Virus record (IMG/VR): IMGVR_UViG_3300033004_000003
Span: 1-53,646 of that record
Direction: 5' to 3' (one strand)
DNA: 53,646 nt
Source of the DNA: a virus
In this document: piece by piece, positions 13,854 through 17,050 of the stretch
How the letters are laid out: each line of letters starts with the position of its first letter
Position numbering within the stretch: position 1 is the first letter of the stretch
The notes under the pieces: model-generated
Seen by the model: the letters and a program-made list of their open reading frames with translations, nothing else
Databases searched by the model: none
What the model was told of the DNA's origin: nothing
Position numbers and translations under genes: made by a program

Positions 13854-14768
13854 ATGCCTATTAATCTATCCTCGATCAAGAACGAACTGCTCCCCGGCCT
13901 TCGCGCTCTTACCGGCAAGTATGATCAAATCCCCCGCGAGTGGGACCAGATTTTCGACGTCGGTAAATCTGAGATGGCCCTGGAACGCACCGTCGAAATG
14001 GCGTACCTCGGCTATGCCCAGCTCAAGACCGAAGGCGCGGCTACCACGTTCGACAACTCGGCCGGCGAGCGCTTCACCTACAACCAGGAGCACACCGAGC
14101 TTGCGCTTGGTTACGCCATCACCCGCAAGGCGGTGGACGATAACCTCTACAAGCGCCAGTTCAACCCCGCCAACCTGAACATGATGCAGTCGTTCAATCA
14201 GACGCAGGAAATTCTTGCGGCGAACGTGCTGAACACTGCCGGCGTGTACAATGCGGCTGTGGGCGGTGACGGCGTTTCTCTGGTTAACGCCAGCCATCCG
14301 GTTGATGGCGGCACCTACTCCAACACCTTCAGCACGGCGGCTGATCTGAACGAAAGTTCCCTGCTGAACGCGATGATCCAGATCCGTACTGGCTTCGTCG
14401 ATCAGCGCGGCCTGAAGCTTTACGCCCGTGGCCGAAAGCTGGTCATCCCGCCGCAGCTTGAGCCGACTGCTCTGCGCCTCATCAAGACCGCGCTGCGCCC
14501 CGGCACCGCCGACAACGACATCAACGCCATCATGTTCACTACTGGTGGTCTGAAGGACGGCTATCTGGTCGATGACTACCTGACCAGCCCTTATGCCTGG
14601 TTCCTGCTGACCAACATCCCCGGCCTGCTCTACCTGGAGCGCGTGCCGTTCGAGATGGATATGCAGGTGGACTTCACCACAGATAACCTTCTCGTGAAGG
14701 GCTATCACCGGTACTCCTTCAGTTACTACAATCCAAGGGCCATCTTCGGCACCTTCCCGACCTCGTAA
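13854..14768 (+). CDS. Major capsid protein
   Basis: Product of 304 aa, RBS GGGGAGCATGACAG. N-terminus has ALTGKYDQIPREWDQIF and MAYLGYAQLKTEGA, then LALGYAITRKAVDD, VNASHPVDGGTYSNTF and the C-terminal LVKGYHRYSFSYYNPRAIFG. This resembles the Mu-like (gpT-type) HK97-fold capsid subunits. A scaffold gene is present upstream and no prohead protease is seen, so maturation without cleavage by a phage protease is possible. Highest-expression position, behind its own leader. Confidence 0.85.
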   Translation: MPINLSSIKNELLPGLRALTGKYDQIPREWDQIFDVGKSEMALERTVEMAYLGYAQLKTEGAATTFDNSAGERFTYNQEHTELALGYAITRKAVDDNLYKRQFNPANLNMMQSFNQTQEILAANVLNTAGVYNAAVGGDGVSLVNASHPVDGGTYSNTFSTAADLNESSLLNAMIQIRTGFVDQRGLKLYARGRKLVIPPQLEPTALRLIKTALRPGTADNDINAIMFTTGGLKDGYLVDDYLTSPYAWFLLTNIPGLLYLERVPFEMDMQVDFTTDNLLVKGYHRYSFSYYNPRAIFGTFPTS

Positions 14769-14780
14769 GGAGAGCAGATA

Positions 14781-15284
14781 ATGGCTGGCCCTGGTAGCAC
14801 TTATACCGGCCCCCTCATCTCGGGGCCTATCTGGAACCCTGGAGACTTTCGTGGCCCGGTTAACACCGGCCTTGTCCTCCTGACGCAGACGGTTACTCTG
14901 ACGCAGAACGGCGCGACTGCCGTTACCACGCCGGTTTACCTGCCCGCCGGTTCGCAGATCACGGATTTCAACATCGATACCACAACCGCGTGGAACTCTG
15001 GAACATCCGATCTTCTGACCATCGGCCTCGCTGCTGCTGGGACTGACTTCCTGAGTAACACTAGCGTTGCCGCCACTGGCCGCGCCAGCGTCGGTGCAGC
15101 TGGTTCAACCGTCCCGTACACTGCCGCGCAGCTCTCCGCGATGAAGTCGGTTGGCGCTACTACTGGCAACGGAGTGCCGATCTACATCACAGTAACGCCG
15201 GCCGGCACCACTGCGACGACTGGCTCTACTACCGTTACCGTCTTTTATATCCAGACCGTCCAGTTGAACGCTGGCGAGGCTTAA
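14781..15284 (+). CDS. Beta-rich structural protein (head fibre or decoration)
   Basis: Product of 167 aa, RBS AAGGAGAGCAGATA. It has almost no helices; Thr, Gly, Ala, Val and Ser dominate (VTLTQNGATAVTTPVYLP ... TTATTGSTTVTVFYIQTV), as expected for a jelly-roll or immunoglobulin-like sandwich. Placed directly after the capsid gene, it is probably on the outer head surface. No family recognised. Confidence 0.6.
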   Translation: MAGPGSTYTGPLISGPIWNPGDFRGPVNTGLVLLTQTVTLTQNGATAVTTPVYLPAGSQITDFNIDTTTAWNSGTSDLLTIGLAAAGTDFLSNTSVAATGRASVGAAGSTVPYTAAQLSAMKSVGATTGNGVPIYITVTPAGTTATTGSTTVTVFYIQTVQLNAGEA

Positions 15285-15296
15285 TAGGAGCTTATC

Positions 15297-15737
15297 ATGG
15301 CATACAAACATGGCGGCGATGTTCACAAGGCCGTAAAGGAAAAGTCGATGCACCGCATTGCGAACCCGAAGCACCGCAAGACTGGTGGCCGCGCCGAGGA
15401 AGAGGAAGACGGCAATTCTGGCGTCGATACTCCGGAGCCGGATACCGACATGTCCTACACTTATCAGTCCAACGTCACCAAAGAGGCGAAGGACGAGAAG
15501 AAAAAGGGCGGCGCCATCAAGAAGGTCGCCAAAAAGAAGGGCGGTGAAGTCGCCAAGAAGAAGCATGTCGGTGAAGTCGAGGGCGAGGCCAAGAAGCACC
15601 GCCTGGACCGCCCTGGCCGCAAGCGCGGTGGCGGTGTTGGCGCCGATACTTCCCCGCTGACCACTGCCGCCAATACCAGCGAACGCCGTGGCCCGTCCAA
15701 GGCCGACGACGATCGGGGGATCACGGGGGAAGAGTAG
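15297..15737 (+). CDS. Lys-rich KKGG-repeat protein, frame 0
   Basis: Product of 146 aa, RBS AGGAGCTTATC. Very basic, with repeated K-x-GG blocks: KHGGDV at the start, RKTGGRAEEEE, KKKGGAIKKVAKKKGGEV and RLDRPGRKRGGGV. An acidic insert sits between. It probably binds DNA or the capsid lattice, like an internal head protein. The LDR..RKxGG block is shared with the protein at 9958. Its reading frame ends in GITGEE, and the -1 frame, open from 15575, continues into a conserved C-terminal block (next entry). Confidence 0.6.
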   Translation: MAYKHGGDVHKAVKEKSMHRIANPKHRKTGGRAEEEEDGNSGVDTPEPDTDMSYTYQSNVTKEAKDEKKKGGAIKKVAKKKGGEVAKKKHVGEVEGEAKKHRLDRPGRKRGGGVGADTSPLTTAANTSERRGPSKADDDRGITGEE

Positions 15738-15976
15738 CCCTTCACCGCAAATCCGGTGGCCGTGCAGACGGCCATTCGGGCGAAGGGCACGATAAGCCGG
15801 AAAAATGGATCGCAGGGGCAATAAAACACCCTGGCGCGCTCCATAAGGCGCTCCACGTTCCAGAGGGCGAGAAAATCCCGGCCAAAAAGCTGGAAAAGGC
15901 TGCGAATTCGGATAACCCTACACTCGCCAAGCGTGCTAATCTGGCTAAGACGCTTAAGGGCCTGCACAAGGGCTAA
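15728..15976 (+). CDS. Startless ORF: likely -1 frameshift extension of the Lys-rich gene
   Basis: In the -1 frame relative to the preceding gene, an ORF runs to TAA 15974-15976. From 15575 onward it has no ATG or TTG, and from 15629 no GTG either. It encodes LHRKSGGRADGHSGEGHDKP, then KHPGALHKALHVPEGEKIPA and KKLEKAANSDNPTLAKRANL, ending KTLKGLHKG. The WI..AIKHPGAL..L...EGEKIPAKKLEKA block is a recurrent phage motif, and K-x-GGR continues the upstream style. Two G5 runs lie at the overlap (15715-15719, 15725-15729). Either ribosomes slip -1 or a G was lost in assembly or mutation. Confidence 0.6.
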   Translation, partial: GRVALHRKSGGRADGHSGEGHDKPEKWIAGAIKHPGALHKALHVPEGEKIPAKKLEKAANSDNPTLAKRANLAKTLKGLHKG

Positions 15977-16345: not shown

Positions 16346-17050
16346 ATGAGCAACACTCTCGGAGGCATGTCGGGCACATATAACTTCTCGCCCGCCTCTT
16401 CGCAGCTAATCCTCTATGCGTTTGGCCGGTGCGGCATACGTGGCCCGCAGTTGCAGGCCGAGCATATGCGCGACGCTTACACCGCCATGAACATGATACA
16501 GGCGGACTGGTCTAACGATCAGGTAAATCTCTGGACCGTCGAGCTTATCACCGTGCCTCTGGTATACGGCCAGACGGCCTATACAGTCCCCAGCAATGTC
16601 ATTCTGATCCTCGATGCCTACCTGGAAATGAACCCAGGCACATCGGACCCGATTGATCTCTATATGTATCCGATCAGCCGCACGGAATACGCGGCATTTC
16701 CGGACAAGGTGACGCCAGGCCGGCCAACGGTCTATTGGTTTGACCGCACGCTGTCGCCAAGCGTGTATCTGTGGCAACCGCCAGTAGATGCGTCGTGGAC
16801 GTTTAACATGTATTGTTGCCGTCAGATACAAGACGCGAACACGCAGAACCTGCAACAGCCGGAAATTCCGTATGGCTATCTCAAGGCGTTTTCCGATGCC
16901 TTGAGCGTTGAACTGGCCATGATCTATGCGCCGGATAAGGTGCCGATGCTGCAAGCCGCCGCCGCCGCGTCTTACAAGCGCGCCAAGGACATGGGTAGCG
17001 AGCGGGCTTCGTTGTACCTGTTCCCAGGCATGGGGAACTACTACAGATGA
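16346..17050 (+). CDS. Head-tail adaptor (P22 gp4-like)
   Basis: Product of 234 aa, RBS GGAGGGTGTTAG. The pattern SSQLILYAFGRCGIRGPQLQ, DAYTAMNMIQADWSNDQVNLW, YTVPSNVILILDAYLE and YLKAFSDALSVELAMIYAPD is that of adaptor proteins that dock under the portal in podoviruses. A helical bundle at both ends is separated by a beta domain. A second adaptor-like gene lies at 21610. Confidence 0.75.
   Translation: MSNTLGGMSGTYNFSPASSQLILYAFGRCGIRGPQLQAEHMRDAYTAMNMIQADWSNDQVNLWTVELITVPLVYGQTAYTVPSNVILILDAYLEMNPGTSDPIDLYMYPISRTEYAAFPDKVTPGRPTVYWFDRTLSPSVYLWQPPVDASWTFNMYCCRQIQDANTQNLQQPEIPYGYLKAFSDALSVELAMIYAPDKVPMLQAAAAASYKRAKDMGSERASLYLFPGMGNYYR

Follow-up and report, generated by a model that had tools for sequence, protein, structure and literature searches.

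Probable −1 ribosomal frameshifting at a G-rich heptamer joins a conserved domain to a Lys/Gly-rich phage protein

A gene lying between the capsid and adaptor genes of an uncultivated phage very probably carries a programmed −1 ribosomal frameshift at its 3′ end. The conclusion comes from comparative sequence analysis of the window, by which we mean the whole 53,646-nucleotide stretch of IMG/VR virus record IMGVR_UViG_3300033004_000003, and of its relatives. A sequence-only reading had proposed that such frameshifting yields two protein forms, and this proposal is supported by a slippery heptamer, by the absence of its GGG codon from relatives without the downstream domain, by a hairpin and by a switch of codon-position bias from one frame to the other. 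The predicted products are a protein of 146 amino acids and a fusion of about 226 amino acids.

Genes and junction elements

Matches in Pfam and PHROGs identify terminase, portal, capsid, SU10-type adaptor and DNA ejection genes in the window, marking it as the record of a tailed phage, probably a podovirus. The features discussed below are as follows.

13854–14768, plus strand: major capsid protein gene, two genes upstream of the N open reading frame (phrog_371, E = 3.6e-9; Pfam Mu-like gpT; synteny)
14781–15284, plus strand: gene for a small protein of unknown function adjoining the capsid gene, also found upstream of N in several relatives
15297–15737, plus strand: N open reading frame, frame 0, encoding a Lys/Gly-rich protein of 146 amino acids with an RLDRPGRKRGG motif, the product of normal termination
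15715–15719, plus strand: first G5 run (CGG GGG ATC), not conserved and probably not used
15725–15731, plus strand: slippery heptamer G GGG GAA, at which the P-site Gly codon GGG could re-pair with GGG at −1; kept in relatives and a published motif
15728–15976, plus strand: coding part of the −1 frame, 82 codons and a stop, beginning GGA AGA GTA GCC; third-position substitution bias, no start codon
15732–15736, plus strand: 5-nt spacer from heptamer to stem, overlapping the frame-0 stop codon TAG (15735–15737)
15737–15788, plus strand: stem-loop with outer stem GCCCUUC/GAAGGGC and an inner 9-bp stem, conserved in the closest relative
15806–15973, plus strand: conserved C domain (W-I-x-G-A-I-K-H-P-G-A-L-H-K...), predicted to form four short helices (pLDDT 71.7, pTM 0.49, moderate)
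16346–17050, plus strand: SU10-type adaptor gene, downstream (Pfam SU10_adaptor, E = 3.5e-9; synteny)

The order capsid, N, C, adaptor is common to most of 20 loci compared, some of which lack one member or end early. By gene position, both forms of the protein are likely to belong to the head or the head-neck region and to be produced in a fixed proportion.

The frame break, the heptamer, the spacer and the stem, together with their conservation and the constraint on both frames, can be read from the sequences; we infer that slippage occurs, at some rate, and that it is ribosomal rather than transcriptional. Most ribosomes would read N in frame 0 and terminate at the TAG at 15735, releasing the short protein. 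The stem-loop beginning at 15737 would pause a fraction of them and favour a one-base backward slip at G GGG GAA, whereupon the Gly-tRNA would re-pair with GGG at 15725–15727 and reading would resume at GGA 15728. Slipped ribosomes would thus join 144 frame-0 codons to the −1 coding part and make the longer protein with the C domain, a product that would escape standard gene callers.

Two frames under coding constraint

The N open reading frame ends in DDRGITGEE*, and the stop-to-stop frame at 15575–15976, which is −1 relative to it, encodes KHPGALHKALHVPEGEKIPA. No ATG, GTG or TTG was found over that whole frame, read in the identical copy L002, and between the slip and the domain there is no CTG, ATT, ATC or ATA among the codons. 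The open reading frame ending at 15976 therefore has no usable start, as had been noted from the letters alone, and the arrangement is not a matter of chance, since it recurs in L161 and in 33 other distinct sequences. The same reading had placed the feature at 15575–15976; the frame exists, but only about 15728–15973 of it behaves as coding, the overlap at 15575–15727 being an out-of-frame reading beneath the frame-0 gene. The conserved part starts exactly at the entry point of a −1 slip at G GGG GAA.

Relatives were gathered by a C-domain search of IMG/VR (425 candidate stretches, of which the best 80 were kept) and by N-profile searches of viral contigs (241 and 200 candidate stretches, 80 of each kept). 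Genomes gave seven more loci, among them prophage-like stretches in Rhizobium, and 111 distinct N loci were classed in total. Of the independent relatives, L161 is nearest to the window, being 64.6% identical to it in N and 79.7% in C, and its −1 frame is likewise without a start codon. Among 32 distinct −1 sequences, substitutions at the first, second and third codon positions number 2978/1647/8621 in the N tail read in frame 0 and 4116/2753/13801 in the C part read in frame −1; between the window and L161 alone they number 32/20/79 and 14/9/43, respectively. The third-position bias thus matches frame 0 up to the slip and frame −1 from there on, indicating that both parts are under protein-coding constraint and that the frame changes at the heptamer.

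The slippery heptamer

The overlap of the two frames (15575–15735) was said to contain two G5 runs. Both are present in the window, the second at 15725–15729 within ACG GGG GAA (15723–15731), but only the second is kept in L161, which reads CGT GGT ATC at the position of the first; we therefore rejected the first run as the slip site. The L161 junction is ACG GGG GAA TAC TAG against ACG GGG GAA GAG TAG in the window, and NCG GGG GAR followed by one codon and a stop forms the end of N in all RLDRP-type relatives with a startless −1 domain, a set that leaves out L054 and L079, which have ATG starts. The recurrence of one heptamer at one place in relatives supports the proposal that the ribosome may slip at ACG GGG GAA with re-pairing of the P-site Gly-tRNA. 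Such re-pairing would be perfect at GGGGGAA, whereas the A-site Glu-tRNA could re-pair on GGA through G:U only, so the site is not a canonical X XXY YYZ heptamer.

The slip codon itself is conserved beyond what the protein sequence explains. It is GGG in 33/33 distinct GES-tailed relatives that have the domain, each with an NCG GGG GAR junction, although these sequences are related to one another and do not represent 33 independent events. In GES-tailed relatives without the domain it is GGG in 0/5 (GGA in two, GGC in two, GGT in one), and GGG accounts for only 4/515 Gly codons elsewhere, upstream in the same N open reading frames. Two incomplete GES-tailed loci, one with GGG and one with GGC, were set aside from the slip-codon count. 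Relatives with neither the domain nor the slippery codon amount to an unusually clean control supplied by nature. L086, read on the minus strand, has a one-base break of frame within the N tail, ahead of a heptamer that is itself intact; this indel is probably a sequencing error.

It is very unlikely that the C domain of the window is instead produced on its own, by termination-coupled re-initiation or from an unusual start near the N stop. Some relatives may use such a route: in the +1 class described below, an ATG (7/25) or a GTG (7/25) overlaps the N stop, and certain other relatives have a plain ATG start. The startless frames of the window and L161, and the window's linker free of the rarer start codons, speak against it, and re-initiation leaves unexplained why the GGG codon is present, why relatives without the domain do not have it and why coding constraint sets in at the slip.

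The downstream hairpin

Programmed −1 frameshifting is further supported by a predicted stem-loop behind the heptamer. For heptamer sites a spacer of 5–9 nt has been studied, according to a review (PMC5009743); the first stem base follows the heptamer by 5 nt in the window and L161, and by 6 nt in the 21 others of 23/23 distinct −1 loci. Compared with resampled sequences encoding the same protein, the hairpins have z < 0 in 23/23 of these loci (mean z −2.2) and rank within the best 20 of 400 same-protein versions in 17/23 distinct sequences; for the window and for L161, 0/400 controls fold as well. In hairpin subtype A, 95.6% of cells are paired, a double change from AU to CG occurs in 4/9 rows, and covariation is 0.217 versus 0.138 (6/500 shuffles). 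No double changes were found in subtype B, where 90% of cells are paired versus 89.4% in shuffles. Between the window and L161, pairs of the inner stem are kept, by eye, through one double change together with G:U/G:C changes.

The same fusion would result if RNA polymerase slipped at the G5 run, which is present, and inserted a G, giving a G6 messenger that encodes it. For slippage by a polymerase, five Gs make a short tract, and a hairpin 5–6 nt downstream and a conserved GAR codon fit the ribosome better, making transcriptional slippage extremely unlikely. A sequencing or assembly error, or a decaying pseudogene, is hardly credible: a single-base frame break at a homopolymer invites the suspicion, but the break that was to be sought in relatives recurs at the corresponding position in L161 and in another 33 distinct sequences, which rejects an assembly error, substitutions are third-position-biased in both frames, and a second contig, L002, agrees with the window over 5860/5860 bases (it may come from the same sample).

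Comparison with known frameshift systems

The motif GGGGGAA appears as the ‘fivetwo’ slippery motif of the SEA-PHAGES frameshift set in the account of PRFect (PMC10885494). Since the motif is already published for tail assembly chaperones of phages, the mechanism has precedent; what is new is the gene family in which it is found. A scan of viral contigs with the pattern CGGGGGAANNNTAGCCC retrieved PHROGs-named tail assembly chaperones with the same layout in 3/3 loci tested (L336 for both parts, L357 and L358 for their N parts), so the layout of the window is one used by a known class. The heptamer and spacing of the window also occur in chaperone-like −1 junctions at L326, L327, L352, L354, L355 and L375, assigned by likeness, as they do at L336, L357 and L358, assigned by PHROGs.

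The window resembles the tail assembly chaperone −1 frameshift (lambda G/GT, GGGGGAA type) in the kind of heptamer, in its position just before the frame-0 stop and in the pairing of an N product with an N–C fusion, a layout that L336, L357 and L358 share. Unlike a chaperone gene, the window gene sits in what is probably a podovirus genome, with the capsid gene on one side and the adaptor gene on the other, and neither its N part nor its C part matches the chaperone family in Pfam or PHROGs; on grounds of place and sequence we rejected a chaperone identity.

Frameshifts that lengthen phage head and tail proteins at the C terminus are described for gene 10 of T7/T3, A2 and Listeria PSA, and the same Ig-like extension is there reported to be attained by −1, +1 or in-frame solutions (PMC5009743). 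The window is like these cases, as far as that review describes them, in having a structural-module gene with an optional domain that frameshifting would add, and its relatives likewise divide among −1, +1 and in-frame solutions. It differs in that the protein extended is other than the capsid protein itself and the extension is predicted to consist of short helices. An Ig-like extension finds no support in the model, which has four helices and no strand (moderate confidence). A Fusellovirus VP2 assignment (PF25632) was rejected at 18.7 bits against a Pfam cut-off of 27. Searches of Pfam, PHROGs, PDB sequences and Foldseek, the last with a model of only moderate confidence, gave no usable match for the function of the C domain.

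Literature searches found no report of this gene or site. A widespread gene family of uncultivated phages would be a further entry among the few structural-module genes for which expression by frameshifting is recorded. The N protein, queried with the window and L033 sequences, had no match among 50,697 phage records, and the C domain matched 2 of 385 and 2 of 397 sampled genomes from the class and the order, respectively, of Rhizobium lusitanum P1-7 (G001 itself included). In L003, L009, L011, L015, L039 and similar loci the C domain lies within long Met/Pro/Gly-rich proteins with repeated K-x-GGR motifs.

Other routes to the same domain

Counting from the domain gave 129 distinct occurrences. 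Thirty-four lie at −1 and carry the heptamer; 28 of them are startless and six have a start codon, which in the −1 loci inspected is a GTG lying two codons ahead of the domain. Ten are at −1 without the heptamer, five startless and five with a start, which means that a −1 junction can be startless and yet have no heptamer; the startless five are L406, L439, L442, L056 and L454, the last having an unrelated upstream protein. In the first four, N ends in a PFSSA-type tail and there is no GGGGGAR heptamer; L056 carries CGG GGG TAG. The remainder comprise 34 at +1, three behind an in-frame stop, 32 embedded or fused, eight without a nearby K/G-rich open reading frame and eight too short for judgement. 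Other relatives, then, come to the domain by different means: a UGA-C +1 junction, a restart at ATG, or fusion in frame.

In the +1 class, N ends NNN GAC UGA C (L320:5001–5410, L322, L172, L005, L048, L171 and others). The stop is UGA in 25/25 and UGA-C in 22/25, versus 16/40 and 6/40 in domain-less loci, and an SD-like stretch lies close upstream of the stop in 20/25 versus 7/40; the 40 domain-less loci were defined by regular expression, and by profile search one of them, L184, proved to have the domain shortly after N, and two more, L187 and L217, at a greater distance downstream. Neither ATG nor GTG overlaps the N stop in 11/25. The UGA-C stop and the SD-like sequence just upstream recall the +1 frameshift of bacterial release factor 2 (RF2), but the last sense codon is GAC in 23/25, with poor +1 re-pairing, unlike RF2, whose frameshift site is given as CUU (PMC5009743). 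From these sequences, an RF2-like +1 frameshift or a restart is possible. Relatives with a normal ATG for the domain, named beforehand as evidence against frameshifting, do exist, but most have it in this other frame and lack the heptamer; the C domain may accordingly also function as a polypeptide of its own.

The window's own clade has only two independent −1 members, the window and L161. In the tree these two group with +1 and fused relatives rather than with the second −1 clade; the −1 class needs four changes, and at least two changes of the −1 label are forced by starred branches. We tentatively suggest that the junction by the capsid gene might have been rebuilt repeatedly among recoding modes, selection keeping a two-product ratio rather than a mechanism. 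Those modes would be −1 at GGGGGAR, UGA-C +1 with an SD-like stimulator (an arrangement present in Rhizobium prophages, L320–L322), possible stop read-through in L004, restart, and fusion in frame. With junctions so varied, the family is well suited to the question of what preserves two products when the recoding mode changes. In L004 (3941–4010) the domain lies in the frame of N after a single TAG followed by C, which may possibly reflect read-through or an error.
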